From positions 1 through 64,000 of IMG/VR virus record IMGVR_UViG_3300021181_000009: a stretch of DNA of 64,000 bases; one strand, given 5' to 3'. Under the pieces are notes generated by a model, which saw only the letters and a program-made list of their open reading frames with translations, was not told the DNA's origin and searched no databases. The stretch is from a virus. The number at the start of each line of letters is the position of its first letter. Position 1 is the stretch's first letter. Both the position numbers and the translations under genes were made by a program. Of the stretch, positions 1,170 to 61,135 are shown piece after piece.

Positions 1170-1177
1170 AATAAATA
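1170..1177 (+). promoter_or_regulatory. T4-type late promoter octamer (AATAAATA)
   Basis: AATAAATA matches the T4 late consensus TATAAATA at seven of eight positions. It ends only 5 nt before the ATG at 1183. In T4 the start point is about 6 nt after the octamer, so the message would begin at the start codon. No Shine-Dalgarno sequence fits in the gap. Confidence 0.5.
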
Positions 1178-1182
1178 CTTGT

Positions 1183-1779
1183 ATGAAAATAAATGAAATA
1201 GATCCAGGCGAAAAACAAACATTCGAACCCTCTAATACAGATTTGAGCAAAAGTTTTGGTAAATTTTTGTCTGATTGTAGTGAATCCATTGCTGCAATGC
1301 AAGCTACAAATACATTTTTATATAGGGGTATGTCGAATATTGTTTCTCCGGATATTTTCATTGGACGTTCAAGAGAACATAGAAATTCATTAACATTCAA
1401 GCCATCTGTATCGAAACAAATTGATAAACAATTTATAAAAGCTGGATTCAAAACTCATAGATCCAACTCAATTTTCTGTACTAGTTTGGCGGGTGTAGCA
1501 GTTACTTATGGTAGGCTTTATATGATTTTTCCCATCAATGGTTTTGATTTTGCTTGGAGCAGTGAAGTTTATGATTTTGCTACAAATAATCGGTTGGCTA
1601 CTATAGCTAACATTAATCCAAAAGAATTTGATCCGATTGAGTTCAGTTATTCAGACACTAACTTAAAGGGTGCATTAATGTCTGGTAAGGAAATAATGAT
1701 ACACGGAACTTATTATGCATTCAGATACTCAAAATATGGAAAAGGTTTATCTAAGGCATTGAAGGTTGCACTACCATGA
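1183..1779 (+). CDS. ART-like protein 1 (putative ADP-ribosyltransferase)
   Basis: 198 residues and the simplest member of a ten-gene family in this window. The ART-like order is visible: FLYRG with Arg48 (motif 1), RSNSIFCTS with Ser96 (motif 2, in place of S-T-S) and KEIMIHGTYYAF with Glu170 (motif 3, strand E-h-x-h-x-G as in E-V-L-L-P-x-G of known ARTs). Between them sits the family signature IFPINGFDFAWS. The position two before the Glu is Gly rather than Glu/Gln, so the target specificity or activity is unclear. The N-terminus MKINEIDPGEK contains I-x-E at residues 3-5, the motif cut by T4-type prohead protease. The stop overlaps the next start (ATGA). ART fold is inferred from motifs; capsid delivery is a hypothesis. 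Confidence 0.6.
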   Translation: MKINEIDPGEKQTFEPSNTDLSKSFGKFLSDCSESIAAMQATNTFLYRGMSNIVSPDIFIGRSREHRNSLTFKPSVSKQIDKQFIKAGFKTHRSNSIFCTSLAGVAVTYGRLYMIFPINGFDFAWSSEVYDFATNNRLATIANINPKEFDPIEFSYSDTNLKGALMSGKEIMIHGTYYAFRYSKYGKGLSKALKVALP

Positions 1780-2435
1780 AACTATTTGAACTAGATCCAG
1801 GCGAAAGGCAAGGTGTGCCGTATCATGGCATGGAACGTATAATTGACGTCCTAGAATCTGAATGTGGAGATGCATTGCAGGCAGTAAAAAGTGCTCACAG
1901 ATTTATATACCGCGGCGTAAAGGTAGGTGGTTCAAATGTAGGGACATTTTGGAAACCAAGACATTTGCAAGGTAGCGCACCAACTATCTTTAAATCATCA
2001 TCTAGAGAAAATAGAAAGCCAATGGATACTCCAGGGCAAATTCAAAATATGATTGATGGTGCTCTAGAAGCAACTGGGTTTAAAGCACTGCGAAGTAATT
2101 CAATATTTTGTTCTGGTTACAAAGCTGCTGCAATTAATTATGGTGTGCCGTATATTATTTTCCCTATCAATGGATTCGACTTTACTTGGTCAAGAAGATA
2201 TGCAGATTTATTTTCTGACGTTATCGATAATCTAACAGTAAATGATGGAGCTAGAGAACAATTTTTCGATCAATTCGAACATGATCCTGGCGAGTGGATT
2301 TTCGATATTGCAAAATATAATAACAGTGGTTTAGAAAACGCCATCAATTCTAATCATGAAATTATGATTAGAGGCGAATACTATGCAATACATCATCAAT
2401 TTGAACCTGTCTTAAAAAGCTATTTGATGTATTAA
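1776..2435 (+). CDS. ART-like protein 2 (putative ADP-ribosyltransferase)
   Basis: 219 residues, coupled to the preceding paralogue by an ATGA overlap. Motifs: FIYRG (Arg46), LRSNSIFCSG, IFPINGFDFTWS and HEIMIRGEYYAI (Glu195). It has an insertion of about 17 residues after the first Arg (from KVGGSNVGTFW) that the other members lack. The N-terminal tag MKLFELDPGER has L-x-E at residues 3-5. The Cys of SECGDAL matches the conserved Cys of the helix before motif 1 in its relatives. The two-gene unit is followed by a late promoter for the fibre-like genes. Function is inferred as for paralogue 1. Confidence 0.6.
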   Translation: MKLFELDPGERQGVPYHGMERIIDVLESECGDALQAVKSAHRFIYRGVKVGGSNVGTFWKPRHLQGSAPTIFKSSSRENRKPMDTPGQIQNMIDGALEATGFKALRSNSIFCSGYKAAAINYGVPYIIFPINGFDFTWSRRYADLFSDVIDNLTVNDGAREQFFDQFEHDPGEWIFDIAKYNNSGLENAINSNHEIMIRGEYYAIHHQFEPVLKSYLMY

Positions 2436-2452
2436 ATTTTGTCCATTTTGTT

Positions 2453-2460
2453 AATAAATA
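2453..2460 (+). promoter_or_regulatory. T4-type late promoter octamer (AATAAATA)
   Basis: AATAAATA 20 nt before the ATG of the virion protein gene at 2481, in the 45-nt gap after the ART-like pair. The spacing allows a short leader of about 14 nt. There is only a weak ribosome-binding site (TGGAAT). Confidence 0.5.
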
Positions 2461-2480
2461 CATAATATGGAATTGACAAA

Positions 2481-2900
2481 ATGACACAACAAATAATTAA
2501 TATAGGTTCAGCACCAAACGACGGAACGGGTGATAATCTTCGTTCTGGCATGACTAAGGTGAATGCAAACTTCACTGATCTTTATACAAATAAATTAGGT
2601 TTTACTGGTAACTCTGTAATAGTCGGTGGAAATGTAGATATTTCTGTTGTTGGTTCTGGCATCAAAGTTGCTGAAGGATCTAATGCAAAACAAGGAGTCG
2701 CTACTCTATCATCTGGAGTGATTGTTGTGCCAAATACTTCCGTCACAGCGACTAGCAGAATTTTCCTAACTGCACAAGATAATAATAGCACAGGTGTATT
2801 AAGAATTTCGTCTAGGACGCCAGGGGTATCATTTACGATCACCTCAAGTAATTCAGGGGATTCTGGTGTGATTGCTTACGAAATTTTCGAACAAGGTTAA
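2481..2900 (+). CDS. Tail/virion structural protein, short paralogue
   Basis: 139 residues. The N-terminus (MTQQIIN, then NDGTGDNLRSGMTKVNANFT) is the widespread start of structural and fibre proteins in T4-like phages, recognisable by DGTGD-x-LR and K-x-N-x-NF. The C-terminal 88 residues (from about residue 53, DISVVGSG, to EIFEQG) are nearly the same as the C-terminus of the next gene, with SNAKQGVATLSSG and LTAQDNNSTG. That looks like a beta-rich surface module. The pair arose by tandem duplication, and this copy lacks the central segment of its neighbour. Exact virion location is unknown. Confidence 0.65.
   Translation: MTQQIINIGSAPNDGTGDNLRSGMTKVNANFTDLYTNKLGFTGNSVIVGGNVDISVVGSGIKVAEGSNAKQGVATLSSGVIVVPNTSVTATSRIFLTAQDNNSTGVLRISSRTPGVSFTITSSNSGDSGVIAYEIFEQG
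2637..2900 (+). repeat. Tandemly duplicated C-terminal module (second copy 3278-3541)
   Basis: The last 264 bases of the gene at 2481 and the last 264 bases of the gene at 2903 are the same length, align without gaps, and encode closely similar residues from DIS to the final EIFEQG. Most differences are third-position changes. This marks gene duplication with purifying selection on the C-terminal domain. Confidence 0.75.
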
Positions 2901-2902
2901 AC

Positions 2903-3541
2903 ATGACACAACAAATAATCAATGTTGGAGCAACTTCCAACGACGGAACCGGCGATAAGTTACGATATAGTATGCAAAAAGTAAATGCAAATTTCACAGA
3001 TTTGTATTCTACTTCCTACGCATCAAATGTTTTAAATACTTTCAATACTAGAAGTGGGACAGTAACATTGCTTTCAGCAGACGTGAACGGCGCGTTAGGC
3101 TACACGCCATATAGTTCAACAGGTGGTATTGTGTCTGGTGCAGTTACTATAGGTTCTACTGCGGCATCAACATCTACTACCACTGGCGCACTGATTGTAG
3201 CGGGTGGTGCGGGTGTCGCAGGTGCAATTAATTCTGCATCCGTAACAACTAGTTTATTAACGGTTACAGGAAATATCGATATTTCTACAATTGGTGCTGG
3301 ATTGAAGGTCGCTGAGGGTTCCAATGCCAAACAAGGAGTCGCTACACTGTCTTCTGGAACGGTTCTTGTATCAAATACTTCAGTTACTGCAACTAGTAGA
3401 ATCCAGCTAACTGCACAAGATAATAATAGCACCGGGGCATTACGAGTGTCAGCAAGAACACCATTTACATCTTTCACTATCACATCTAGCAATGGAAGTG
3501 ATTCTGGTGTCGTCGCTTACGAAATCTTCGAACAAGGTTAA
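2903..3541 (+). CDS. Tail/virion structural protein, long paralogue
   Basis: 212 residues, starting 2 nt after the preceding paralogue stops. It has the same DGTGD-x-LR N-terminus and the same C-terminal module. Between them is a segment with FNTRSGTVTLLSADVNGALG, the repeated phage-fibre motif (TRxGxVTLxxxDVxxALG) of fibre shafts, followed by GALIVAGGAGVAGAI, also common in fibre and collar proteins. A late-expressed fibre or baseplate decoration protein is the best reading. Host-range involvement is possible but not shown. Confidence 0.65.
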   Translation: MTQQIINVGATSNDGTGDKLRYSMQKVNANFTDLYSTSYASNVLNTFNTRSGTVTLLSADVNGALGYTPYSSTGGIVSGAVTIGSTAASTSTTTGALIVAGGAGVAGAINSASVTTSLLTVTGNIDISTIGAGLKVAEGSNAKQGVATLSSGTVLVSNTSVTATSRIQLTAQDNNSTGALRVSARTPFTSFTITSSNGSDSGVVAYEIFEQG

Positions 3542-3573
3542 ACCACGTTTTTTCTCATGCCACATCTCTACTA

Positions 3574-3581
3574 GTTAAATA
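3574..3581 (+). promoter_or_regulatory. T4-type late promoter octamer (GTTAAATA)
   Basis: GTTAAATA (TAAATA at 3576-3581) in the 71-nt gap before the gene at 3613. A clear ribosome-binding site, TGGAGATG, sits 9 nt before that ATG, so this gene block would have a normal leader. Confidence 0.45.
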
Positions 3582-3612
3582 TCTGTATATAACTCAATGG
3601 AGATGTAGCAAC

Positions 3613-3852
3613 ATGTCAGATGTAACCACTCAACAAACAGCACCAGAATTAGGCGTCCAGGACCTTCAAACGGTTCTTGCAGTAATTGAACTTGCAAGCA
3701 CACGCGGAGCATTTAAGGGCGGCGAATTAAGTGCCGTCGGTCAAATTTTTGATAAAATCAATAATTTCGTAACAGCATTCACTAAACAAGCAGAGGAAGC
3801 CGCTGCAAATGAAGCACAACAAGAATCATCAACACCAGGAGAAGCACAGTGA
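3613..3852 (+). CDS. Small conserved phage protein, T4-like core set (function unknown)
   Basis: 79 residues, acidic, with a helical core (VQDLQTVLAVIELASTRGAF, then KGGELSAVGQIFDKINNFV) and an Ala/Glu/Gln-rich tail. From memory, short proteins with the LQDL-x-x-x-x-x-IE-x-A-x-x-RGAF pattern are conserved in aquatic T4-like phages, next to the relatives of the two following genes. No enzyme motif is visible. It begins after a good GGAG ribosome-binding site and overlaps the next gene by an ATGA-like junction, so the three small genes at 3613-4836 are probably one translation-coupled unit. Confidence 0.55.
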   Translation: MSDVTTQQTAPELGVQDLQTVLAVIELASTRGAFKGGELSAVGQIFDKINNFVTAFTKQAEEAAANEAQQESSTPGEAQ

Positions 3853-4517
3853 TAAAGCATATTGGTAGACATAACAATAAGAAAGTAATAATTTTGTATC
3901 GTGAAGTTCCTGAGGAAGCACATATGTGCCTCGTGACATATAGTGATGCTCTACCACGTAAGTATCATGATACTATCATGCCAATTCTTGAATCTCAACC
4001 TGGGCAAGCAGCAGACGTATTTGCAGAAGCATTGCACCGCAATTTATTGCATGATGGTCGCAACATTTTAGGTAGTTTGCACAAAGAAGGATTTATCAAG
4101 AAAGTCCCGACAAATCAAGTCATTGTAACAGCAACCCCGACTAGTCAAGTTCGTCTTGATGAATTGAATAACATTCTTTCTGAAATGCGAAAGGGTGAAG
4201 AAGCAATTAAGAAAATGGCTGATCTAGACTCAAATCGCGGCATGAATGGAAATAATAATCCATACAAACAAAAAGCACAAGATATCGCAGAACAATTTGA
4301 TGAGTCGCAAAGTGGTGTCGGTGTATTAGATGATACGTATTTTGCACAACAGAATCTAGCTCAAGCTGCTAGAATGAAAACTGAAGCGGAAGGTTTGCTA
4401 AAAGAGGCAGCGCGTTTGGAAGCGGAAGCAAAAAAGTTCCTTCCAGAAGAAAAAGAAGCAAAAGTAGTCAAGACACGAGCTCCTCGCAATGCCAAGAAAG
4501 TCTCAGTCCAAAGCTAA
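3849..4517 (+). CDS. Conserved T4-like phage protein (function unknown)
   Basis: 222 residues. The N-terminal 95 residues are globular (MIKHIGRHNNKKVIILYREV through KKVPTNQVIVT). Residues 105-215 are highly charged and probably coiled coil (EMRKGEEAIKKM and AARMKTEAEGLLKEAARLEA). The protein ends in a basic tail (KTRAPRNAKK). The N-terminal sequence resembles a protein conserved in T4-like cyanophages, as I remember it, but I know no assigned function. A long coiled coil beside small conserved genes would suit a virion or head-assembly role; that is a guess. Confidence 0.5.
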   Translation: MIKHIGRHNNKKVIILYREVPEEAHMCLVTYSDALPRKYHDTIMPILESQPGQAADVFAEALHRNLLHDGRNILGSLHKEGFIKKVPTNQVIVTATPTSQVRLDELNNILSEMRKGEEAIKKMADLDSNRGMNGNNNPYKQKAQDIAEQFDESQSGVGVLDDTYFAQQNLAQAARMKTEAEGLLKEAARLEAEAKKFLPEEKEAKVVKTRAPRNAKKVSVQS

Positions 4518-4836
4518 CGCAGGACCCAAAGCCCGGAAAATTTCAATCAACGCTAAAAAAGATTGGAAGAATATTCTCAAGCAGGTGGAGAAACAAGAAG
4601 TTCCCTTAGAATTTGTTAGATCGATTATGATAAAATTGATCGACGGGACGGATATCTCCATTGACGTCCCAGCTTTATTAGAATCTAGTGAAGCTGGGAC
4701 TGTGGAGGAATATCTTAATGAAAAATTTGCAGAACTGGATGCTTACATACAATCAGTAGACTTTTTTATAAATGTAGAATCTGTAACTACAATAGTCCAA
4801 TCATCAACAGACGAATTATTTAAAAAATTGTCATGA
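4489..4836 (+). CDS. Conserved T4-like phage protein (function unknown)
   Basis: 115 residues, overlapping the end of the previous gene by 29 nt in another frame. The start at 4489 is the only one that keeps the basic N-terminus (MPRKSQSKANAGPKARK). The body, with VPLEFVRSIMIKLIDGTDIS and FAELDAYIQSVDFFINVESV, is a small alpha/beta domain. I recall a similar protein beside relatives of the previous two genes in marine T4-like phages. No catalytic motif is seen. Its last codons overlap the start of the endonuclease gene at 4833 (ATGA), so the intruding gene is translationally coupled to it. Confidence 0.5.
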   Translation: MPRKSQSKANAGPKARKISINAKKDWKNILKQVEKQEVPLEFVRSIMIKLIDGTDISIDVPALLESSEAGTVEEYLNEKFAELDAYIQSVDFFINVESVTTIVQSSTDELFKKLS

Positions 4837-5705
4837 CAAAAAGAAAAACTACCGAAGAATTCATTTCTGAATGTATTTCTATTCATGAATTTAAGTATGA
4901 TTATTCTAAAACTAATTATATAAATGCTAAAACTAAGGTAGAAATTATTTGTTCTTCTCATGGTAGCTTTTGGAAAGTCGCTGAATCTCATACTAAATTG
5001 AAAATCGGTTGTCCTAAATGCAGCGGAAGGTATGTAACCAATACTGAAGAATTTATTAATAATTCTAAGAAACTTCACAATAATTACTACGATTATTCTA
5101 AAGTAAACTATGTCTCTAGTTTAATTAAAGTTGAAATTATATGCCCAATCCATGGTAGTTTTTGGCAAACACCTGGAAATCATTCTAGTAAAAAAGGATG
5201 CATTTCTTGTTTTGGTCATAAGAAATTATCTACAAAAGAATTTATTATTAAGGCAAATAATATTCACAATAATAGATATGACTATTCTGAAACCAATTAC
5301 GTCAGCAACAATAAGAAGGTTAAAATACACTGTAAAGAGCATGGAATATTTTTGCAAACTCCTGATAATCATTTGCATAAAAAGGGTTGCCCCTTATGTG
5401 TTTCTACTATCAGCAAATCTGAAACAACTTGGTTAGATTCGTTTGATAATCCGAAAATTATTAGACAATATCGTATTATAGTAGCTGAGGGCAAACATTT
5501 TAGAGTTGATGGATATGATCCCACAACAAATACTGTATATGAATATCACGGGAAATATTGGCATGGTCATCCAGATGTATTTCCTGACCGAAATGCTGTT
5601 CATCCAGTAAACAAAATACCAGCAATCAATCTATATGAACGAACGCTAGAAAAAGAACATCTTCTCAAAGATTTGGGATATAATCTCATTTCAGTCTGGG
5701 AATAA
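4833..5705 (+). CDS. Homing-type endonuclease: zinc-ribbon-like repeats plus Vsr-like nuclease domain (copy 2)
   Basis: 290 residues, with the same architecture as the gene at 221: three repeats with C-x2-HG and C-x2-C (EIICSSHG with CPKC, EIICPIHG with CISC, KIHCKEHG with CPLC), then a nuclease domain with FRVDGYDPTTNTVYEYHGKY and WHGHPDVFPDR. Its repeats follow the pattern H-x3-YDYS-x2-NY-x6-KV. It joins the stop of the preceding conserved gene by ATGA and lies 16 nt before DHFR. Nucleotide-metabolism and structural genes are classic homing sites in T4-like phages. The cleavage site is probably in a neighbouring gene; I cannot define it from one sequence. Confidence 0.75.
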   Translation: MTKRKTTEEFISECISIHEFKYDYSKTNYINAKTKVEIICSSHGSFWKVAESHTKLKIGCPKCSGRYVTNTEEFINNSKKLHNNYYDYSKVNYVSSLIKVEIICPIHGSFWQTPGNHSSKKGCISCFGHKKLSTKEFIIKANNIHNNRYDYSETNYVSNNKKVKIHCKEHGIFLQTPDNHLHKKGCPLCVSTISKSETTWLDSFDNPKIIRQYRIIVAEGKHFRVDGYDPTTNTVYEYHGKYWHGHPDVFPDRNAVHPVNKIPAINLYERTLEKEHLLKDLGYNLISVWE

Positions 5706-5721
5706 TCAAAAAGAGAAAATT

Positions 5722-6231
5722 ATGAAAGCTATATTTGCTGTTGACTCATCCGGCGGGATAGGCAACAAGGGGTCACTCCCTTGGCCAAAACACGCTGAAG
5801 ACCTAGTGTGGTTTAAAGAGCACACACTAAACAATATCGTTGTAATGGGAAAAAACACGTGGAAGGACAAGAAAATGCCCAAACCACTCAAAGATCGCAT
5901 CAATGTTGTTGTAACAAATAATCCACCTGAAGATGCTTTGGCTCGATATTCTACTCCAGACAATCTTACTGAAACACTGATAACTCTCAAAGAAAGTTTT
6001 CCTGAAAAAGAAATTTTTGTCATCGGTGGCAAACAAGTTCTAGAATGGCTAAGACCGGAAATCAAGACAATTTATTTGACACGCTTCAAGGGAAGGTATT
6101 ATACTGATACTAGATTAGACTTGAATTCCTTTTTAACAGGATTCCGTTTAATGTCAGTCAAACCAGGTGATAATTGCACCTTCGAGGTTTGGGAAAAAAT
6201 TACATTTCCATGGAAGGATAAAGAAGAATGA
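5722..6231 (+). CDS. frd: Dihydrofolate reductase
   Basis: 169 residues. It reduces dihydrofolate to tetrahydrofolate with NADPH and recycles the folate oxidised by thymidylate synthase. The N-terminus MKAIFAVDSSGGIGNKGSLP has the DHFR motif (IGNKGSLPWP). Glu/Asp-lined and cofactor motifs follow: VVMGKNTW (M-G-R/K-x-T), INVVVTN, and EIFVIGGKQV (the IGG NADPH motif). A weak ribosome-binding site AGAGAAA lies 8 nt before the ATG. The gene overlaps thymidylate synthase by 4 nt (ATGA). The pairing matches T4 frd-td, where both serve the dTMP cycle. Confidence 0.93.
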   Translation: MKAIFAVDSSGGIGNKGSLPWPKHAEDLVWFKEHTLNNIVVMGKNTWKDKKMPKPLKDRINVVVTNNPPEDALARYSTPDNLTETLITLKESFPEKEIFVIGGKQVLEWLRPEIKTIYLTRFKGRYYTDTRLDLNSFLTGFRLMSVKPGDNCTFEVWEKITFPWKDKEE

Positions 6232-8063: not shown

Positions 8064-9166
8064 ACATTCCTTTTTTTGCTTTAGATAGACAGTATCAAAC
8101 AATTAGAACCGATATTCTCAATGCATATGATAAAGTATTATCATCTGGTAAAGTAATCAGAGGTATCAACACTCAAATGCTTGAAGAAGAAATTGCTGCT
8201 AGATGTGATAGGCAATTTGCAATCGCAGTTAATAGTGGCACAAGTGCATTAATGGGTGCTATCATTTCTTTGTATTGTCAATCAAAGAATATCTTATGTC
8301 CAGCAGAAAGCTTTGTCGCAACAGCAAACGCAATTTATTCTACATCAAATAATCCTGTGATTGTAGATTCTGATTACAGTGGATTGCTTGATATCAAAAA
8401 ATTGACTAAAGCGAAATTAGAAAACGCAAGTGCCTTGCTTTATGTAAATTTATACGGTAATTGTTTAGATTATGACAACTTACGTGTAATGCTAGAGTTA
8501 TATGGGATCAGCAATCTTCCTATTATTGAGGATGCGTGCCAAAGCTTCGGTTCATCATATAAAGGAATCCCATCAGGAAAACTGGGAACTATTAGTTGCT
8601 TGAGTTTTGATCCAACAAAGAATTTAAACAACTATGGATCAGGTGGAATGATTTTGACTGATGATATTCATGTTGCAGAATATATGCGAAACTTTAGATC
8701 AAATGGGACTGAAGTATATTCACACCGTTTAGAGTATGGAATAAATGTTCAAATGTCTGAAATGGATGCTGTTGGATTGCTCGTAAAGTTGAAACATTTT
8801 GATAAATGGCAAGCACGCAGAACACAAATTGCCAATCACTATAATTCAGAATTTTCTAAAATATTTGCATTAGATATTCCTACCCAAACACTCGATTCTG
8901 TGTGCAACTGGCACAAATATGTGTTGAGAACTTCATCGAACGATAGAGATAAACTTAGACAACATCTAGAAAAGAATGGTATTGAAATTAGAATTCATTA
9001 TGAGAAAACATTAAGGCATCATCATATGAATACTGACAAATACGATACCAATACTATTTCTCACAAAAATTGCCTAGAAAAGCTTAGTTTACCCATATAC
9101 CCAGAGCTCCAGGATGTCGAGGTGGAATACATCATAAAGGTAGTAAAAGAATACTACGGTAAATAG
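8060..9166 (+). CDS. DegT/DnrJ/EryC1/StrS-type PLP aminotransferase
   Basis: 368 residues. A PLP-dependent sugar aminotransferase that converts a keto-sugar nucleotide to an amino sugar. Seen: AIAVNSGTSAL near the phosphate site, IIEDACQSFGS with the PLP-nitrogen Asp158, and SFDPTKNLNNYGSGG with the Schiff-base Lys187. I chose ATG 8060 (MNIPFFAL), which overlaps the preceding stop as ATGA, over an in-frame TTG 9 nt upstream. Paired with the preceding epimerase it should yield a nucleotide-activated amino sugar. The next gene starts 4 nt after its stop. Confidence 0.87.
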   Translation: MNIPFFALDRQYQTIRTDILNAYDKVLSSGKVIRGINTQMLEEEIAARCDRQFAIAVNSGTSALMGAIISLYCQSKNILCPAESFVATANAIYSTSNNPVIVDSDYSGLLDIKKLTKAKLENASALLYVNLYGNCLDYDNLRVMLELYGISNLPIIEDACQSFGSSYKGIPSGKLGTISCLSFDPTKNLNNYGSGGMILTDDIHVAEYMRNFRSNGTEVYSHRLEYGINVQMSEMDAVGLLVKLKHFDKWQARRTQIANHYNSEFSKIFALDIPTQTLDSVCNWHKYVLRTSSNDRDKLRQHLEKNGIEIRIHYEKTLRHHHMNTDKYDTNTISHKNCLEKLSLPIYPELQDVEVEYIIKVVKEYYGK

Positions 9167-9170
9167 TAGT

Positions 9171-11292: not shown

Positions 11293-14170
11293 AATATTCA
11301 TCCAACCACGCCCACTCAAAACTTAACAACAATTTATTCAATTCGCCATTGACACTTTCATAATATGTGATAGCGTCTTTTGCACCTTTAAGGCACATAT
11401 CTGCATTCTCGCCTTCGGCAACATTCAACCAAATATCCAATCTTTCTTTTGCAATATAGTCGCCATTGTCTGCAAAGTATCTAAGCTTCAAACTTTCCCT
11501 AAAAGATGTGCGCCAACATACTTTACTATCTTTATTAAAATGACTCGTTCCACTAAGCATAGGAACAACATCGTGCAACGAAGAAAGCGTAAAATCTAAT
11601 CCGTGATTATCATCCATACTCAATACCGTATTCTTGTGGTATGCGATAATTGCCTGATGGCCATATTCTAATCCATTGACAGGATTCTTTGCATGAAAAA
11701 TATAGTGGCGTGGCATGCGAAGTCGGTCTGGTTGCCAATTAAAATCAAAATTCGTATCAATCTCTAACTTAGCAAATACATTGAATGCCCAATTTGTTTC
11801 ACTAGCATTCGATGCTGCCTTATATGCTGCTGATCGACCATTTACACCATCGACCCTAACGATACGATTTTTGAAACCTTTATCTATAACGTATTCATTA
11901 AGCTTCAACCACATATCATCTGCCATCGATTCACCATTGCTAATGAATACAATATCAAGTGGTTTGCTTTTATACCAATCTTTCTTATCTATCGTAATGA
12001 ATGGATAGTCGTATATTTGAGAATTGAAATAGTTCTTAACGTCTTTTGGCACCAATGCAAACTCTGCACCATCACTCAATACATGCACCGATCTATCTTT
12101 ACCTGACCATAGATTTGGCGTGTATGTAAGCACGCCCCCTTCATATTTTTTAGGCAAAAACAATGCATAATTAGTAGAAAAAACGTGATTTTCGACTACT
12201 TGAGGCAAGGTTTCTTCAGTAAATCGTACAGTTTCAACGTCATACCTATTAACTGGCTGCACTGATACGTAATTCACTGTTTTAAAGTCCTCTAACTTAC
12301 TAATTTGCTGTCTCTGCGCTTTAAATTCAGTTACTGGAACATAAAATGTATCGCCATACTTCTGATCGTTACTAGGAAATACATGTAACATATTATGTTG
12401 CCAAGCACTTGGGTGCCAGCTAAAGTCAAATGTGGAATAATCACAAATACTTGAGATAACCCAAATATGTTTTGTCTCAGATTGATTGGCACAACGAGTT
12501 ATAGCATCCAAATAATTATCAACAAATCGCATCGTTTTTATATTAGAATATTTTTGCTTTAGAATATCTAATTGTGTTTTGCTTTCTGGATTGAAATGAT
12601 CTAGATACCAAATATCAATTTGTTCTTCACTATTATCCACTGTTTGATTCTTGACAAAATTAAGATTTGGCCAATCTTTGATATCATTGCACCATGTTCT
12701 GTTTCTGTTTAACTCAAACTTAGACAATAGAATTGAATCAGTCCATTTATCCCATTTACTACCGAACACATGTGTCATAGATAGTTCCCATGGTTCTGGG
12801 GACCAACTGAAATCAAATTCATCATAAACAAATTCACTACTGATAATCCAGAATCTATCTGTATTACATTTATTAGCACAACGAATTGCTGTTTGTTGTA
12901 AATTATTAACGAATCTCGTTTTTTGTAGCTGCGGATATTTGTTCTTTAATGATTCAAATCTTTCAGTACTTTCTTTGTTACCTTTGTCTAAAAAGAACAT
13001 ATCAAGTGATGCTGTATTTGTTGTTTTAATATCCGCAACATAGTTAATACTTGTATTACCGGCTAGATATGACGGTGCATTAACAAAATATGTTTCACTG
13101 TGTTGTTGCCATTGTGACGCAAATACATGAACAAGATCAATTTGACTTTTATCTGGGTGCCAACTGAAATCAAATTCATCATAATTTAAATCTTTACTCA
13201 ATGCCCAAAACTTTTCAGTAGGATGTTCGCTTATTAAATCTTCTAATGTAGATAGTATGAAATAGCGAGGGGAATTAATACCACTATAAAAAACCCGTAT
13301 ATCATTGATATAATTGCATCCACGAGGCGCGGTTGTTCCTGCGAAATATGAAGTTTCAGAAGTTTTTTGCCATTGTGAAGGGAAGACATGTTTATAATCC
13401 TTTTGACTTTCATCTGGATGCCATGAGAAATCAAACGTAAAATAATCTGCGTTAGGATCAAGCGTCCAATATTGCATTTCAGGTATTGCTTTAGCTTTTA
13501 ACTGTGGGACATATTTTTCTTGTGTCGCATTCTTTACAACGTATGTCGGACCACCTGTAGCTTGCCACTGCGTTCCAAATTTATAAATATATGGAGGGTC
13601 ATTAGGATGTGGGCACCAACTGAAATCAAAGCTACTCTTATCGATATTAGCGGGAACAATCCAGCCGCCAATTGGAATAGTTTTTGCACGCAACTCATCG
13701 TGGAATTTTGGAGCAACTGCTTTAATACAATGATATTCGGGTCCCCCAATGTCCCACCATACCGTACCGAATATGTGAATGTAAGGTGGCTCGTCTGGGT
13801 CAGGGTGCCAGGAGAAGTCGAAACTATCTACATCTATATTTTCAGGGACTACCCAGTTTTCGACACACGATTTCCTAACAACTCGTTGCTCAGTTCTATA
13901 ATTTTTAATTAAATTTGATTCAGTTAGATTTGCCGGAATGAGATACGTTCCAGCATTGCGCTGCCACTGCGAACCAAACACGTGAGTGTGATGCTGTTCC
14001 CATTTAGGTGGCATCCAATAAAAATCAAAATTATCATAATCTGTATCTGCTGTAATCACCCAACAAAACTTAGTTCTGCTTTGTTTTGCAGCATCGAAAA
14101 TATCTACTGCGTATTTTTCATGTGGAAATAGATTTGGTTTAGTAGAAGTGGTGTAGAATACGTCGAACAT
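11279..14170 (-). CDS. 963-residue repeat protein built from degenerate GT-A glycosyltransferase-like units
   Basis: Eight copies of a block FDF-[SYN]-W-x-P are visible at about 60-190-residue intervals (FDFYWMP, FDFSWHPDPD, FDFSWCPHPN, two FDFSWHPD, FDFSWSPEPW, FDFSWHPSAW, FDFNWQPD). Most are followed by HVF-x-S-x-W-Q. The C-terminal 230 residues (LDIVFISNGES, VRVDGVNGRSAAYKAASNAS, KNPVNGLEYGHQAI) align by eye with the intact glycosyltransferase-like protein at 35864-36802, but the DGDN metal motif of that protein is replaced (VFAKLE). The repeats look like copies of the same half-domain with the DxD lost. A glycan-binding or scaffold role is possible; catalytic activity is doubtful. It lies inverted within the ART array and starts 5 nt after a TAAATA octamer. 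Confidence 0.55.
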   Translation of the reverse strand: MFDVFYTTSTKPNLFPHEKYAVDIFDAAKQSRTKFCWVITADTDYDNFDFYWMPPKWEQHHTHVFGSQWQRNAGTYLIPANLTESNLIKNYRTEQRVVRKSCVENWVVPENIDVDSFDFSWHPDPDEPPYIHIFGTVWWDIGGPEYHCIKAVAPKFHDELRAKTIPIGGWIVPANIDKSSFDFSWCPHPNDPPYIYKFGTQWQATGGPTYVVKNATQEKYVPQLKAKAIPEMQYWTLDPNADYFTFDFSWHPDESQKDYKHVFPSQWQKTSETSYFAGTTAPRGCNYINDIRVFYSGINSPRYFILSTLEDLISEHPTEKFWALSKDLNYDEFDFSWHPDKSQIDLVHVFASQWQQHSETYFVNAPSYLAGNTSINYVADIKTTNTASLDMFFLDKGNKESTERFESLKNKYPQLQKTRFVNNLQQTAIRCANKCNTDRFWIISSEFVYDEFDFSWSPEPWELSMTHVFGSKWDKWTDSILLSKFELNRNRTWCNDIKDWPNLNFVKNQTVDNSEEQIDIWYLDHFNPESKTQLDILKQKYSNIKTMRFVDNYLDAITRCANQSETKHIWVISSICDYSTFDFSWHPSAWQHNMLHVFPSNDQKYGDTFYVPVTEFKAQRQQISKLEDFKTVNYVSVQPVNRYDVETVRFTEETLPQVVENHVFSTNYALFLPKKYEGGVLTYTPNLWSGKDRSVHVLSDGAEFALVPKDVKNYFNSQIYDYPFITIDKKDWYKSKPLDIVFISNGESMADDMWLKLNEYVIDKGFKNRIVRVDGVNGRSAAYKAASNASETNWAFNVFAKLEIDTNFDFNWQPDRLRMPRHYIFHAKNPVNGLEYGHQAIIAYHKNTVLSMDDNHGLDFTLSSLHDVVPMLSGTSHFNKDSKVCWRTSFRESLKLRYFADNGDYIAKERLDIWLNVAEGENADMCLKGAKDAITYYESVNGELNKLLLSFEWAWLDEYFKNQ

Positions 14171-14174
14171 AAAT

Positions 14175-14186
14175 ATATTTAAATAT
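14175..14186. promoter_or_regulatory. Divergent late promoters fused in a palindrome (ATATTTAAATAT)
   Basis: A perfect 12-bp palindrome between divergent genes. It reads TAAATA on both strands: minus 14181-14176, 5 nt before the ATG at 14170, and plus 14180-14185, 13 nt before the ATG at 14199. The same layout occurs at 25531-25544. Two RNA polymerases could not bind both octamers at once, so the two directions should compete. Confidence 0.5.
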
Positions 14187-14198
14187 GCATATTATAAC

Positions 14199-19153: not shown

Positions 19154-19175
19154 TTGTATATCCTTCATACATCTT

Positions 19176-19183
19176 TATTTATC
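19176..19183 (-). promoter_or_regulatory. T4-type late promoter octamer (TGATAAATA)
   Basis: TAAATA on the minus strand at 19181-19176, 22 nt before the preferred ATG at 19153 and in the 46-nt gap after the carbamoyltransferase gene. It would give the endonuclease its own late transcript, with a leader of about 15 nt holding AAGGA. Confidence 0.45.
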
Positions 19184-23035: not shown

Positions 23036-23043
23036 TATTTATA
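23036..23043 (-). promoter_or_regulatory. T4 late promoter, exact TATAAATA
   Basis: The minus strand reads TATAAATA, identical to the T4 late consensus, 16 nt before the ATG at 23019. A GAGGG ribosome-binding site lies in the short leader. It should drive the leftward SGNH-carbamoyltransferase run as late genes. Confidence 0.75.
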
Positions 23044-25512: not shown

Positions 25513-25530
25513 TTTATCTTCCTCATGAAT

Positions 25531-25544
25531 TATTTACGTAAATA
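25531..25544. promoter_or_regulatory. Divergent late promoters fused in a 14-bp palindrome (TATTTACGTAAATA)
   Basis: The perfect palindrome TATTTACGTAAATA holds CGTAAATA on each strand. On the minus strand it precedes the gene starting at 25512 by 18 nt, which include GAGGAAG. On the plus strand it ends 5 nt before the ATG at 25550, leaving no room for a leader. It is the second such fused divergent element after 14175-14186. Confidence 0.55.
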
Positions 25545-25549
25545 TTCGC

Positions 25550-39102: not shown

Positions 39103-39131
39103 ACTGTAGCAGGTTTTGTATGAAATGTCAA
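39103..39131 (-). promoter_or_regulatory. Sigma-70-like promoter for the glycosyltransferase / radical SAM transcript
   Basis: TTGACA (exact) at 39131-39126, a 17-nt spacer and TACAGT (four of six) at 39108-39103, in the 37-nt gap before the gene starting at 39096. The predicted start point falls at the ATG, as at 221. It would allow host-polymerase, early reading of this block, separate from the late structural genes upstream. Confidence 0.4.
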
Positions 39132-43910: not shown

Positions 43911-43918
43911 TATTTATC
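43911..43918 (-). promoter_or_regulatory. T4-type late promoter octamer (GATAAATA)
   Basis: GATAAATA on the minus strand overlaps the TAA stop of the 4425-residue gene and ends 6 nt before the ATG at 43904. There is no room for a Shine-Dalgarno sequence, so the message would be leaderless. It gives the downstream virion genes their own late start. Confidence 0.5.
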
Positions 43919-55900: not shown

Positions 55901-57191
55901 TAAACTGGACTCCGTCTGGACTTGTGTATGTTGTTCTGCCTAGAATTTCAGTAGTTACATCAATTACTGATGAAGTGGGAGTATTAACAATATTAATTAC
56001 CCCAAATTGGTTAGCATTATTAGTAGTTTGATAATACAAAGTCTGAAGATTCGCTGTGATAACTGGAATCAATTCAAACGAATTGTCATAGTTAGTGCTT
56101 CTAGCAAATTCTCTGTTAGCATATGCATCACCTTCAAGTACATGAACTTTTTGACCGACTGGCACAGAACTTAGTGGTGAAAGTCTAATATAATTATTTG
56201 TATCTATAGTCAACAACCATGTGCCGAATCGCTCAGTCATAGGCACTACCGTATGCGTTTGACTAGAAGTCCAATCAGAATTAGAATTTGATTGGTTAGA
56301 GAAAATAATGATCTTATTGTTGATATAACGAAGCCCGTCAATTCCATCATAATTAGAAATGATACCATTTAATGGCATATCAGCAATTTGCGCATATGTC
56401 AAATCAGAAGCAATGTTAATAGTTGCAGCAAGAGGCATGTTTATGTAACCATCTTGAGCATCTGATTGTGGGACAGTAAAAGTTACAGTTTGAAGTGACG
56501 ACGCTCCATTGTTACTTACGCCGTCAATTTGCCTAGTAGGAACAGTGGTTAGCACAGTGTTAAAACCACTAAGCCCCGGTTGTGTCTGAATCCAGAAATT
56601 TTCAACATTTGTGTTTAACACAAAAGAGTACGTACCTCCTCTAGAAAGATTCAGAGTAGGATTTGCGTCATTTCCAGCTTGATCAAATTGTACGTAATTT
56701 GCTTGATTGTTAGATGAAACTAAAAATGTTTCATTTAACGGAATGGTTACTGTACTAACATTAACAACTGGTGGACCTTCTGGGACCCAATAATATTGGA
56801 AAAAGTTTATAAATTTATCTTCGTCAATCAATGGATTGAAGTTGTAATATTCATTTTCAAAAAGTCTAGAGTGATTATTTACAGGAACATTGTAATTAGC
56901 TAATTTGTTAATCAAATCTGGATATGTTGTAACTGAGGATACTAAGCCTGTAGTGCTATCTGTAATTACAAGACTAGGCTCTAATTGATAATTTGCTCTG
57001 TCAGTAGTCGTTTCGACAATATACCCGTCACCTTGCTTCCAGGTAGGCGTAAAAGTTCTACCCACAAAAGCACTAATTTTTTGTAATTGAGGTTCCGTAG
57101 TTAATTTGTCTAGGGTGGAACCTAGAACTTTTCTATTTGTATCAGTACGGAAAATCGAAGGGAGGTAGTCTAAACTGCGTAAAGTAGCCAT
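43914..57191 (-). CDS. Giant 4425-residue virion structural protein with FG-GAP propeller
   Basis: The frame is uninterrupted over 13.3 kb. The N-terminus (LDYLPSIFRTDTNRKVLGST, LDKLTTEP, then FVGRTFTPTW) is a conserved start of very large structural proteins next to baseplate genes in T4-like aquatic phages, as I recall. Seven FG-GAP/integrin-type repeats (FG-x-AI ... VGAP/VGSP/ISAP) at about residues 2244, 2300, 2350, 2474, 2599, 2744 and 2827 fit a seven-bladed beta-propeller with insertions. Two Gly-rich repeats (GGGGTGATAIAI, GGGGIGATAVAI) lie at about 3540-3610. Ser/Thr/Asn-rich, with little Cys. It is transcribed with gp6 and is probably a tail or baseplate-periphery/fibre protein; no enzymatic domain seen. 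Confidence 0.75.
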   Translation of the reverse strand: MATLRSLDYLPSIFRTDTNRKVLGSTLDKLTTEPQLQKISAFVGRTFTPTWKQGDGYIVETTTDRANYQLEPSLVITDSTTGLVSSVTTYPDLINKLANYNVPVNNHSRLFENEYYNFNPLIDEDKFINFFQYYWVPEGPPVVNVSTVTIPLNETFLVSSNNQANYVQFDQAGNDANPTLNLSRGGTYSFVLNTNVENFWIQTQPGLSGFNTVLTTVPTRQIDGVSNNGASSLQTVTFTVPQSDAQDGYINMPLAATINIASDLTYAQIADMPLNGIISNYDGIDGLRYINNKIIIFSNQSNSNSDWTSSQTHTVVPMTERFGTWLLTIDTNNYIRLSPLSSVPVGQKVHVLEGDAYANREFARSTNYDNSFELIPVITANLQTLYYQTTNNANQFGVINIVNTPTSSVIDVTTEILGRTTYTSPDGVQFTNGLKIIFGDDVTPSNYQFNAYYVEGVGQSIELVQVNTLVTPEPYANTAIGLTEPDYLTMQRSSEDRNPWARSNRWFHIDVLQSAANYNSTSLVLDPTKRAIRPIIEFEKNYQLINTGASFFDVVNLIDFSVTDPFSQVEGKQGFYVDQVKLTNGVKVIFAGATNPTVRQTVYEAQLITVTAGANPQLNLTPLEVAQENQNIIISEGTKYTGVSMNFNGNDWVTNQEKFSVNQPILFDMFDTAGNSFTEQTLYPGTTFIGTKIFGYTIGTGSPDSVLGFPITYRTFNNVGDIQFTNFFDTDVFSYLSNGLTVTKNINIGFLHKTDSSAALGYDLRNVWSTASEESKQYQHFTYTYTSGATQFLIDVTPETSTLVENILLYVNDLYVENDLYAIEQLDIGLYVVMNVTLNPGDKVDIFIYSQESTSIGYYEIPDNLEDNAQNATIDTVTLGQYRSHISEQFISATQSLGIIPGLAVANYLPAIVDTSDTTQITADTAGVTADNVSQFASQKTNVFAFSENTQNQILTSDTTLFDADTTLYSGDNVSSPNLTYGGTGVETQNLRDFPNIYKYKGKIIQNSAGLQYAELFLLNNNYNFINAIRQARYEYNTFKTKFLQAAITISDIDQLATPAAVDAIMKYINANKDISFPYYYSDMIPYGSTGVTTTYNVANPTQLNYNISAIFDPTELSNRAVLVYHNGVQLTRGLNYQFSTTNAVIEFINTTFAAGDVISIVDYSSTDGSLVPETPTKLGLYPAFIPQIVLDNTYQTPMDVIIGHDGSYTPAFGDFRDDLLLELELRIYNNIKTTYTDKLDVNSIIPGKFRTTDYSISEINQILSGEFLTWAGINKVDYSDNNWFQSNNAFTWNYSSFEDKDNQQLHGYWRGIYEYFYDTTHPDTRPWEMLGFSQIPDWWISQYGPAPYTKGNTLLWQDLEAGYVGGGNNIGINPLYARPGLSNYIPVDLAGNLLPPTQVVTKNFDSSLADANYEFGDVAPPEYAWRSSSEYPFSIQILEALAKPAKYFGLLIDNGYQKNASLNQFLFTDNERFKQTDTSFNGTTVNNLIVRQASYTNWVADYIRTQGINPSTTLLSDITAMTIQLAYKMGAFTDQNYLNVILEQNTPATTTQGILVPVDNYSVSLIKSAPVTTATYSAVIVELTSGGYSVRGYDATTPYFNIVPSVSSSNAVTISQAGATATIYQDYTPVLMSVAYGSTFTTKQQLVDFLVSYQRYLNAVGFNFSDRSSALNQQQDWYLSSNEFLAWSQQGWDVGAAIVLSPVANKLQLLSALSVADSLQDNAFGARILDLNFNVIDNTRYTVLRDSSATPNIFAVEVVDGTTIGLMTINLVQWEHVLVFDNITSFNDIIYQPATSDRQYRVKLNGYKTTAWNGSMSTPGFFINQNNVQTWDPNTTYNTNDLVSFKGVYYTAKQIVYPSSTFNFTVWQQIDSSVIKTGLIPNFANTAQQYQNFYNVDYVNFNDQADAHAKGLIGFRPRTYLTDLDVESSSQIKFYQGFIKQKGTTTAVDAFTRANFGNLSSNVELFEEWAIRVGSFGATETKLDVEVQLDSATFTGNPQIIEFNPTVIDTSNSVVPAVSYAPSQLYSAPLSWDSSPFITGPGIPIEQQLPTAGYVRPSDVDAVVFDITDIATIDNVIPNIGSGYTIWTAKDFTNDWNVYRVSETGVTCETVSNALDGLIQLSFAQYHQFTVGQIIALKNFSSAFDGFYQVLQVVDLQNILVAYSANLSGFVQATGTGLVFTLQSIRFTVASDMSTFTPINAWLDGDMTWIDNYQDLGEWAVLQKNSPFDFTNYLSRFTTNIGANFGTAIAASSSNSFVLVGAPGLGFNANGGTLSLFVKSSNGTLVPAQELEITSTQIANLGQTAINTPIGWIASAPGSRSGTGYVYTGIIKNAGFVITQTIVAPDFGVLSNFGGSLCATADGSYLFISAPKVNEVYAYGLVQGAAYNQITLTADSVTATFALGFTPLSINSLNVLDNSGLIAYVPNIDYTISGSNIVFNVAPTTNVIVTQPTQFYNYISTITASDSALNDEFGFDITCNAAGNRLYVSAPNNVGNANEFKAGAVYCFARSGQQFVMDGATTVVVPTLPISNNVTVTIDGVYQPSNIFNPNTYNVIINTSNNTIVFLNAPAAGSIVKVVYGNFNQIQKLGGNTTQQTVNFGQSIAYDDLSGNLLVGAPNETDESIYYSGAVYRFIDAGSSTGTLTSVINPTLIAGDVIAINSFYVTVTNATLNGFASNINAAKITGITASVLNNALVITSSSSATANRLAISPVLGNTYKNLGFVPIQQTQQIINPIATSNARFGYAVAIQDGGTEMMVGSPFASTYEDTTFDSASTTFDRTTTHFVDAIPSGSVFVFELQPDIDGSNLGQYVEVQQLVSGKQVSGDLFGTAIDSSGTDIFVGSPNAFDRNPQAGTVQQYVNSSGTLGWEILRTQSSPIIPNPVNKMFVYSKQTNTILQNIETVDPLFGMIPGEAKQNIDFFTSVDPAVYEVVQNAESGLILNPLAPWGKDQIGLVWWNLDTVRFVDYKQGDLAYRAANWASLMPGSSVDVYEWVSTIYLPSQYVTQVGDGVPKHADDSVYCSQITYDSITGNQVITYYYWIKNKTSINVTSPKTLPVNSVAQIISNPQAQGIEFAAILDTNALALYNVISNVSSNDTILHINYNNSVSDNLIHNEYQLVQNGNVNSKIPPQIISKLTDSLVGVDKLGNTVPDSSLPVSEQYGTALRPIQSMVIDRLTGLEVLIQYVNSVCSVNQIAFSKDLSVIQQFDPIPPAISNNGTINYNQTVANYETLTFLPVAALAPGYKVLVANDFNFNGFWAIYSKTQSNVWVAIQMQSYDTRQYWQYVTWYSPEYNPAYTPDFVVDTLVDIAFLTNVQPGNIIKINDNGSGDSEIVLFNSIGNYTTLALDNATIQFDSSLYDFVDNQLGWDNQRFDVQPFDKFPVQETRNIINCIFNNIFIDDLAINANSLFFRMINYILSEQKWVDWIFKTSFVSVLHQIRELSQVPSYQIDNQTYFQDYLNEVLPYHTIIRDYVLDYTWQDTYLGDVTDFDLPPYFDSSLGYYRSPNGTQPNDQFLLDTQPQYEMWNNYHLSNNLISIELSNGGSGFISTPTVYVTGGGGTGATAIAIMNGSTVASIEILSEGVNYVTAPIVTISGGGGIGATAVAIIGNNLIRSFDLTMKFDRISYNTNVVPWTPNTTFTTNQIVTYNGLSYGINVNFTGSVDDILVSDDTTLISVDETAGIFVSGSTFDTTNLFLMSDSDYTNANDRIAALYDPSSGMPGDFLNQVQSGIDYSGVKMTGLTFEQTPVWDVGGFDTEPFDATQIGPEGFPIPSDSLYDVEVSSLYTDLELGIRPADIIVDGGAYIDAFASYAPEELVPGSVFDTLDFKVVTNDPTINSTNPKGVPVELFSYPGTGFTQTYSYSATNLLGDNVLVFTKNGGMQIPNVNYTMSFNSKTITFKFPPASSDYVYLYVIDDAGGNQIFAESFILSGNTNLITLNAPYAEVMDSLVLFNGLTTNAYTLSLAPDGRNTLLTITAAALNGLNVHVHLYSTYLTRAEVHVQEVVIAGPITSSSYIINMDRTIFNAGPIGGAIIVNHNDNRLIPTNTAYYTGDGVTTVFASQGTQNINPATVQPGDFDVWINNVPYFSSSYTILPPSGTIPRQIQFNTAPPVGAQISVGVNTGAQYVMTGGSPIGNNQFTINSSEVTLLPGDIISIISVQCDDLESIRTQVYQGGQIIGASTLNGFSAAPYDTAGFDAPSTIELIVPNYTLSRPAANLNYLIITFNGRRLIPYNDFSLLTPTVVTLSSTLNVQQSDIVVITSLTEVVQQSAIGFRMFKDMRDNWSYLRLSQANTTTLVQALHITDTEIFVKDVSTLGIPNPEQVIPGVIFIGGERITYWQIDTVNNALLQIRRGTAGTGATQATIPVGTLVEDASMGQEIPNAAGMTWYTLGATTPSNGQSLVNDDTIQAIFLKEQPTFYIG

Positions 57192-57219: not shown

Positions 57220-57227
57220 TATTTATG
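57220..57227 (-). promoter_or_regulatory. T4-type late promoter octamer (CATAAATA)
   Basis: CATAAATA on the minus strand, 28 nt before the ATG at 57191, just after the terminator that ends the gp6 transcript. The leader of about 22 nt has no strong ribosome-binding site. It is the start for the 13-kb structural gene. Confidence 0.6.
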
Positions 57228-60200: not shown

Positions 60201-60686
60201 AGGCGAAAACGCAGCGTTAAGTATCGAATTAAATTGCTCTTGCCAATTGAGATTTGATGGATCATTCCAATTTATTGAAATATTTGCAATATTGTTTCCT
60301 AGACTGTCTATTACACTTTCTGTTGTTGACAGAGAAACTAGTTTCATTTGACCGTTTGCAGGAATGTTTCTGCTTGGATTATAACTAACAAGTCGTGCCA
60401 ACTTTAAAATACTGTCTCTGCGTTCAGCAGTGTCAATAAAGTTTTCTCGTGAATTCAAGTCACCGCGGAACGCTAGATTCTGACCGAAGAATGCAATCAA
60501 TTCAATTAATGCAATATATTCACTACTGTCAATAAAATCGTTGAAATTTTCTGCGTAGTTTAAACGCAAATAATCGATCATAGCCTTTCTAATAGTCTGA
60601 AAGTCATATGATTGAAAATTTGCCTGACTAAAGGCTTGATATATTTTTGTCCAGTCGTTGACTGCTTGTAGATTTTGTGAGGCCAT
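57285..60686 (-). CDS. gp6: Baseplate wedge protein, gp6-like
   Basis: 1133 residues (T4 gp6 is 660). In T4, gp6 joins the wedges into the ring of the baseplate. The N-terminus holds the conserved gp6 segment (IRKAMIDYLRLNYAENFNDF, IDSSEYIALIELIAFFGQNL, AFRGDLNSRENFIDTAERRD). VFGDGVFANIPQGTFRVYYR is the baseplate-J-like core signature (G-D-G-x-x-G-x-x-P). The C-terminal part (WDFGETFYYSDLAAYLHTQL) is also gp6-like. The extra length comes from inserted beta-rich domains in the middle. Gene order gp5-gp25-gp6 on one strand matches T4-like baseplate modules. Confidence 0.9.
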   Translation of the reverse strand: MASQNLQAVNDWTKIYQAFSQANFQSYDFQTIRKAMIDYLRLNYAENFNDFIDSSEYIALIELIAFFGQNLAFRGDLNSRENFIDTAERRDSILKLARLVSYNPSRNIPANGQMKLVSLSTTESVIDSLGNNIANISINWNDPSNLNWQEQFNSILNAAFSPAQKVGTPSATNLVNNITTNVYQVNSLSNVLPVFSFQNKVNGTNTSFEVTGTNINDGTIAEVDPTPGAPFSLFYQNDNAGNTSPNTGFFVRFTQGTLAYQDFNITEVLTNRVISVNFDNINNTDIWLYQLDANNNPTTLWEQVPAISGVNIAFNSISATDRNIYQVVSRANDQVDLVFGDGVFANIPQGTFRVYYRISNGLTYVISPTEMQRIVVPVNYISRLGRIETMTVTASLQYTVATATSRESLADIKLKAPQQYYTQNRMVNGEDYNIFPYTSFSTIVKAKAVNRVSSGISRFIDVIDVTGTYSSTNIFCDDGIIYEEEDDQSFTFSFTNNNDINNVITGEIQEALEGPEMLQFFYANFPRFTSALTWNQVTATTSNATGYFTDSTGKIVELGSFSQTNNKYITQGALIEFTAPAGFYFSTIGLLMAGSPVNPGDSTVLYFQIGAVVGDGTANGTGILSTGYGPVVIDGILPGNAVVTSIIPQYQFQVSSSLSQTMLTNFVTNVTFGVRYDVPTSSLVIINSQNLNTTTPFSLQFAGDTSNQNLDNSWLVWFQPTSIGYNAFYRGLAYIFESVGETTFYFDPLAKVYDSSTGQVVADTINVLKINAQPDTSIGFLNDISCSVLDSITASDGYVDPNRVKVTFSSINGNGAPDNPDFFIDIVNPTVNVTNKIVFFEQSTTYGGYIKYTPVAPGIIINAYATQAQIKSAVNTFTIGTTFYATSEGVFYQSANTINPVTGLYTATTLSVVTNYITRTGRYGLYFQYKHNAIGSRRIDPSPMNLIDIYLLTQAYDTSYRNWIQDTTGTVVEPSAPTTDELFDAYNSLNNYKMISDELIFNSAVYKPLFGSKADPSLQANFLVVMNPSTNATPNEVQTGIIGAINNYFSISNWDFGETFYYSDLAAYLHTQLASEISSVLLVPAANNQSFGSLMQVNANFNEILISAATVDNVQIISSITASQIKASNVIFS

Positions 60687-60705
60687 GTTTAACCCGATAA
60701 TAGAA

Positions 60706-60713
60706 TATTTATC
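60706..60713 (-). promoter_or_regulatory. T4-type late promoter octamer (GATAAATA)
   Basis: GATAAATA on the minus strand, 19 nt before the ATG of the gp6-like gene at 60686. The leader shows only a weak TCGGG site. It lies in the 49-nt gap after gp25. Confidence 0.6.
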
Positions 60714-60735
60714 TGATTTTTATGGCGAATTTTAG

Positions 60736-61122
60736 TTATGCTGCTGTTACTGTAGAGAAAAGTTGTTGATTTTCATTATAAAAACTTAGCAACATATTTG
60801 CTGTTTGATTTGTGGGAATATAAGTCAATGTAATAGCCAATTGAATCCCTTTGTTGAACTGCGTAACAATAATATTTGACAAAGATACACGAGGATCATT
60901 GCCTGCTATAGTCTGAATATCTTTTACCATCGCAGATTTCACATCTTCTGTAAAATTTTCAAACAATAGATTCCAAATGATAGTGCCATAATTAGGATTC
61001 ATCAACTTCTCACCCTTTCGAATGTTAAAATTGTTGAGAATATCCCTGATAACTAAATCTATATCAGACAAAGTAAATTTCTTTGTCTGACCGATTGTTG
61101 AAAATCCAATGTAGGTTGACAT
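60736..61122 (-). CDS. gp25: Baseplate wedge protein, gp25-like
   Basis: 128 residues (T4 gp25 132). In T4 it sits at the inner baseplate with gp6 and gp53 and nucleates sheath assembly. Seen: FTLSDIDLVIRDILNNFNIR, KGEKLMNPNYGTIIWNLLFE (the gp25/LysW-like G-E-x-L-x-P-x-Y-G-T-x-[IL]-W line), DPRVSLSNI and a C-terminal TLTYIPTNQTANMLLSF. Its ATG lies 5 nt after a TAAATA octamer and 8 nt after the stop of the gp5-like gene, so the late message would be leaderless. Confidence 0.9.
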   Translation of the reverse strand: MSTYIGFSTIGQTKKFTLSDIDLVIRDILNNFNIRKGEKLMNPNYGTIIWNLLFENFTEDVKSAMVKDIQTIAGNDPRVSLSNIIVTQFNKGIQLAITLTYIPTNQTANMLLSFYNENQQLFSTVTAA

Positions 61123-61127
61123 ATTAT

Positions 61128-61135
61128 TATTTAGT
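61128..61135 (-). promoter_or_regulatory. T4-type late promoter octamer (ACTAAATA)
   Basis: ACTAAATA on the minus strand ends 5 nt before the ATG at 61122 and overlaps the stop of the gp5-like gene. It would give gp25 a leaderless late message in addition to readthrough from the gp5 gene. Confidence 0.45.

Follow-up and report, generated by a model that had tools for sequence, protein, structure and literature searches.

Do the late messages of some giant T4-like phages begin at the start codon itself, and is this a device of the late phase of infection? The question is raised by a viral stretch of 64,000 nucleotides (nt), positions 1 to 64,000 of IMG/VR record IMGVR_UViG_3300021181_000009 and hereafter the window, in which the hexamer TAAATA, the putative core of a late promoter, stands 5 or 6 nt before several ATG codons. 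The late genes of T4-like phages are a standard example of sigma switching, and it is generally assumed that Shine–Dalgarno (SD) sequences lead their translation. From the sequence comparisons described here, it is very probable that these phages use a leaderless mode of expression through late promoters that abut the AUG, beside SD-led leaders, and that this mode is not confined to late genes.

The 71,174-base record to which the window belongs comes from a group of T4-like jumbo myophages; its gp6-like baseplate protein is 34–36 % identical to those of GAP32, PBECO4, and Phosso, and members of the gp25, gp6, and gp5-like families of baseplate proteins can be recognised. The relatives compared were G003 (280 kb), G010 (340 kb), and G002 (130 kb), together with G001, a near-duplicate of the window's record. 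Six related records provided a pooled set of 953 gene starts. Genes were called as simple open reading frames (ORFs), and a short list of motifs served to score SD sequences; the noise that the two introduce cannot create a spike one nucleotide wide.

Promoter cores at fixed distances from start codons

The original prediction placed TAAATA 5 nt before the ATG codons at 1183, 14170, 25550, and 61122 and 6 nt before that at 43904. These spacings are exact, and a further site, TAAATA-N5-ATG at 9160–9173 (gene start 9171), had been overlooked. In the window's own record, 5 of 63 gene starts have TAAATA at 5 nt; shuffled upstream DNA gives 0.14 (none of 200 shuffles reaches 5), and permuted hexamers at gene starts give an expectation of 0.59. 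For the shuffles, every upstream stretch was shuffled with its dinucleotides kept, in 200 rounds. Across the six related records there are 49 cases at 4–5 nt against 2.5 when shuffled, and no shuffle reaches 49; the comparison with shuffled DNA, which had been proposed as the refuting check, therefore does not uphold chance and leaves the reading standing.

The distances from TAAATA to an ATG opening an ORF of at least 60 codons are bimodal, with a spike at 4–6 nt, very little at 0–3 and 9–13 nt, and a hump at about 14–36 nt. At 4–6 nt, G003 has 24 matches, G010 23, and G002 14, against permuted-hexamer expectations of 2.6, 3.5, and 1.1, respectively; the same histogram gives one match in a 50-kb stretch of T4 and none in 69 kb of GAP32. 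In an unbiased hexamer scan of the 953 starts, TAAATA at 5 nt ranks first, above all SD hexamers (32 against 4.4), and TATAAT at 6 nt is also enriched (13 against 2.2).

The second of these hexamers belongs to a second promoter class. Two sigma-70-like promoters had been reported 6 nt before the start codons at 221 and 39096; both are correct, and the latter is retained with its spacing in G001. TTGAC lies at 17 bp in most of 16 starts with TATAAT at 6 nt, and no conserved −35 or other upstream position was found among 55 sites with TAAATA at 4 or 5 nt, which identifies the first class as sigma-70 and the second as T4-late-like. In a scan of sigma-70-like distances, G003 and G010 show a spike at 6 nt, and T4 and GAP32 show none. 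The full arrangement TTGACN-N17-TATAAT-N6-ATG occurs eight times in G003 and seven times in G010, with none in the reversed controls.

The T4 late octamer occupies −13 to −6, with A at −13 a variant of the first position (PMC2988020), so that a gap of 5 nt places +1 on the A of the start codon. Likewise, a sigma-70 −10 box at −12 to −7 predicts a gap of 6 nt if +1 is the A of the AUG. The two classes match the two predicted gaps exactly. It is proposed that a T4-type late promoter, with the core TAAATA and no −35, would be recognised by a phage gp55-type sigma factor and is positioned with +1 on the A of the start codon. The message would then begin at the AUG with no SD sequence, and the ribosome would enter directly at this 5′-terminal AUG. 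Host sigma-70 promoters in the same genomes would act likewise for a set of genes, making this a general leaderless mode alongside SD-led leaders rather than a late-only device.

The region before these genes is nearly devoid of SD sequences. An SD-like motif is present in 2 of 62 leaderless-type genes; among late genes that have TAAATA at 13–36 nt the count is 52 of 85 (Fisher p 2e-14), and among other genes the share is 35 %. The statement in the original prediction that other genes of the window have normal leaders with ribosome-binding sites was too strong, the motif being found in 16 of the 63 genes of the record. The start codons with TAAATA at 4–5 nt are 71 ATG and 5 GTG or TTG (six non-duplicate records, G001 left out). 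Folding at the 5′ end of leaderless late genes is weaker than in genes at large (p 0.0002) and similar to that of leadered late genes; since the property is shared, weak 5′ structure was rejected as a specific hallmark of leaderlessness. The predicted leaderless late messages are thus well supported by the spacing statistics, the near-absence of SD motifs, the sigma-70 class lying one nucleotide further, and the conservation of the sites between phages.

Conservation in relatives and cultured phages

Of 38 gp25 homologues that share the N-terminal motif M..[FY].GF, 35 have TAAATA 4–5 nt before the ATG, at 40–60 % identity and with diverged flanks. This count was read by eye from a table, and many of the loci are mutually close; outside the window, their 30-nt upstream stretches come in 16 distinct forms. 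The remaining three homologues have SD-like leaders or one mismatch, and gp25 of GAP32, PBECO4, and Phosso has SD leaders. Late-class spacing is also retained between orthologues of 33–66 % identity for a heptose adenylyltransferase-like protein, the terminase (5 nt in G003, 6 nt in G010), and an 80-amino acid protein, and sigma-70-class spacing for an exonuclease and a GIY-YIG-like protein, the latter named from its sequence and not from a family match.

A gp55 gene lies at 67304–68107 in the window's own record, just beyond the window, and is present in all relatives tested. In G003, the leaderless late genes include those for TerL, the tail tube, the head–tail adaptor, and virion proteins; the leaderless sigma-70 genes include an exonuclease and some are of early type.

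The pattern extends to a cultured phage. In Pelagibacter phage HTVC008M, TAAATA stands exactly 5 nt before 12 ATG codons that open at least 40 codons, whereas any other spacing below 10 nt has 0–3 sites. Each of the 12 coincides with an annotated start of a gene, including gp25 (31132), gp48 (19456), gp4 (18943), gp2 (18916, minus strand), gp3 (75830), the tape measure, and a baseplate protein (49760) (T4 gene numbers partly assigned here from product names and gene order). A CHASE2-adenylate cyclase gene in G003 (L100:544–2595, minus strand) and an annotated adenylate cyclase gene in HTVC008M (11972) each have TAAATA 5 nt before the ATG. In Mosig the spike is weaker (6 at 5 nt), and in Melnitz it is marginal. 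Against reversed controls, no clear excess was observed in P-SSM2, S-PM2, Syn1, KVP40, CP220, RaK2, T4, or phiM12; T4 has 10 sites against 5 in its reversed control, yet none at the called gene starts of the 50-kb stretch.

Late-phase control and other explanations

Several points weigh against leaderless late messages as proposed. The 5′ ends at the AUG are predicted from promoter geometry. Because positions one and two of the octamers differ from the T4 sequence TATAAATA, +1 could be displaced by 1–2 nt, and a leader of 0–2 nt is equally compatible with the gaps of 4 and 6 nt that are found besides. The leaderless set matches no simple functional class, and support for the sites before 14170, 25550, and 9171 comes solely from a near-identical relative.

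The original prediction held that leaderless late messages could be a phase-specific control of translation. Its leaderless part is upheld by spacing, conservation, and absence of SD sequences; its phase-specific part is not, because early host-type promoters in the same genomes are also predicted to start messages at the AUG, and because SD leaders follow many late promoters. A switch of translation specific to the late phase is accordingly unlikely, even though several morphogenetic genes (TerL, tail tube, head–tail adaptor, gp25) are among the leaderless late ones and HTVC008M encodes bS21, a ribosomal protein that, according to PMC9723584, which cites earlier work, enters E. coli ribosomes. 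The trait is found with both late and sigma-70 promoters, leadered late promoters outnumber leaderless ones, and bS21 does not track it. bS21 (PF01165) was found in G003, HTVC008M, Mosig, Melnitz, Phosso, and SCTP-2 and, when searched for, was not found in G010; Phosso and SCTP-2 have the protein and lack the spike. Phage bS21 was rejected on this distribution as the cause of leaderlessness. A programme that favours leaderless messages late through an altered ribosome, for example by phage bS21, with SD-less operon-internal genes translated only from late messages starting at the AUG, is slightly less likely still. A narrower form of gating is possible, in which late initiation may be required before SD-less operon-internal genes such as gp25 can be read, then as a leaderless message.

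A-rich upstream elements serve SD-less genes in some bacteria. TAAATA at −11 could therefore be a translational signal, such as an A/U-rich ribosome-binding element or bS1 site, instead of a promoter, and the message 5′ ends, being predicted ones, leave room for this. However, the identical hexamer precedes SD-led late genes at 13–36 nt, and A-rich elements are not expected to hold one fixed spacing. A translational element would also be blind to promoter type, yet the distinct promoter TTGAC-17-TATAAT peaks exactly one nucleotide further, at 6 nt. This offset, with the presence of a −35, argues for promoters, and the translational element was rejected as quite improbable.

Nor is it likely that late transcripts start near the annotated ATG and are translated from a downstream, in-frame codon with a leader. 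This does hold for the ATG at 19168, where 19153 is the better site. Elsewhere, the N-termini match, from residue 1, orthologues with SD-led leaders or other promoters, which supports the start codons; gp25 retains MxxFxGFxTIGQ from its first codon, and the annotation of HTVC008M, made independently, picks the same ATG. Wrong start codons, ruled out by these N-termini as a general explanation, are a very improbable one.

Finally, AT-rich spacers might often hold TAAATA at any distance, and TAAATA-N5-ATG anywhere in the 64 kb is indeed found just 5 times against 2.6 expected (reached by 12 of 100 shuffles, not significant), but shuffles, permuted hexamers, and the reversed pattern rule chance out as extremely improbable, as do the holes flanking the 4–6 nt spike, the lack of such sites at T4 or GAP32 gene starts, and the depletion of ATAAATA in the window (14 against 38 expected).

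Sites in the window and comparison with known systems

Table 1. Late and sigma-70 promoter candidates before gene starts in the window, with confidence in the leaderless assignment where graded.
Feature	Position	Strand	Start codon	Gap (nt)	Sequence or remark	Confidence
Sigma-70 promoter	186..214	+	ATG 221	6	TTGCGA-17 bp-TATAAT	Good
TAAATA	1172..1177	+	ATG 1183	5	Octamer AATAAATA	Good
TAAATA	9160..9165	+	ATG 9171	5	Octamer GGTAAATA; overlaps stop codon of upstream gene	Moderate
TAAATA	14176..14181	−	ATG 14170	5	Octamer TTTAAATA, the weakest	Low
TAAATA	25539..25544	+	ATG 25550	5	Octamer CGTAAATA	Moderate
Sigma-70 promoter	39103..39131	−	ATG 39096	6	TTGACA-17 bp-TACAGT	Good
TAAATA	43911..43916	−	ATG 43904	6	Octamer GATAAATA; 47-amino acid ORF 43761–43904, short but coding	Moderate
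TAAATA, putative late promoter core	61128..61133	−	ATG 61122	5	Octamer ACTAAATA; gp25-like baseplate wedge gene 60736–61122	High
ATAAATA, leadered	2454..2460	+	ATG 2481	20		
ATAAATA, leadered	14169..14175	+	ATG 14199	23		
ATAAATA	19176..19182	−	ATG 19168	7	22 nt before likelier start 19153 (AAGGA motif)	
ATAAATA, leadered	23036..23042	−	ATG 23019	16	SD-like AGAGGGAA	
ATAAATA, leadered	57220..57226	−	57191	28	Giant structural gene	
ATAAATA, leadered	60706..60712	−	60686	19	gp6-like gene	

The sites had been described as late octamers. The TAAATA core is common to all of them, and the T4 consensus is found at none; TATAAATA occurs three times in the window, never at these starts. At 1183, hexamer and spacing are retained in G001 despite divergence from codon 2 onward. 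The TAA of TAAATA is the stop codon of the upstream gene 61131–63167 at the 61122 site and of the giant structural gene 43914–57191 at the 43904 site, and it doubles as such a stop codon in at least 16 sites across the set. A span of 14–15 bases thus holds the stop codon, the core of the late promoter, and the start of the next gene (stop codons 61131–61133 and 43914–43916 in the window). That the ORF 43761–43904 is coding is indicated by differences from the near relative G001, 11 of 17 of which fall at third positions.

Late promoters with ordinary leaders are also present in the window (Table 1), and in relatives the gp6-like gene likewise has a leadered late promoter, at 17–25 nt. At least 8 of the 14 ATAAATA copies in the window stand shortly upstream of a gene on the sense strand; depletion of the motif, with most copies before genes, is the pattern expected of a functional promoter.

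Some other features were observed. A divergent gene pair at 14170–14199 has a common AT palindrome with TAAATA on both strands, as does the pair at 25512–25550, where the palindrome TATTTACGTAAATA serves a leadered gene (24739–25512) and the leaderless-type gene at 25550. About ten paralogues of 200–330 amino acids lie at 1183–17607, with the N-terminus MK[IL]xE[IL]xxGEKQ and a conserved LYRG/SNSIF/IFPINGF core; two members were scanned and have no Pfam match. At 26401–35329 there is a run of genes with radical-SAM-like cysteine motifs, interspersed with small ORFs, and G010 (L123, about 101–112 kb) has 30 tRNA genes and a tmRNA candidate.

No earlier report of such leaderless late messages was found in the searchable literature. 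The late promoters described here resemble those of T4 (gp55/gp33/gp45) in the TATA-box-like core at −10, the lack of a −35, the gp55 gene, and the morphogenetic genes downstream. They differ in having TAAATA as the core, the first positions being free, and in lying at many sites 4–6 nt from the AUG, whereas T4 and GAP32 late promoters are mostly 12–38 nt upstream, with SD leaders. Bacterial leaderless genes, which also offer a precedent for the method, have TA-like signals about 10–12 nt before the start (PMC3160421). They and the leaderless message of phage lambda share with the present genes a −10 at a fixed short distance, no SD, and a strong preference for AUG; here, in contrast, a phage late sigma promoter is predicted to act beside sigma-70, for dozens of genes per phage. 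In T4 gene e and similar genes, a late promoter just upstream of the start eliminates inhibitory 5′ structure, and in T-even gene 25 an RNA hairpin brings the SD of a split ribosome-binding site near the AUG (PMC3014915). A late start point thus alters translation in gene e as here, but T4 keeps a leader and ribosome-binding site where the leader is predicted to be gone. Initiation of gene 25 is non-standard in both, with TAAATA 5 nt away and no SD here, as opposed to the T-even hairpin.

The environmental giant T4-like viruses and HTVC008M are therefore candidates for phages in which a particular set of genes, some of them for building the virion, is predicted to be expressed without a leader. 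Late promoters in Pelagibacter myophages were not predictable by the method used for cyanophages (PMC7029224), and a TAAATA core abutting the start codon could explain that failed search. A simple annotation rule results, and the cultured phage allows a test. If the proposal is true, part of the virion proteins would be translated without SD recognition, from late and sigma-70-driven messages.

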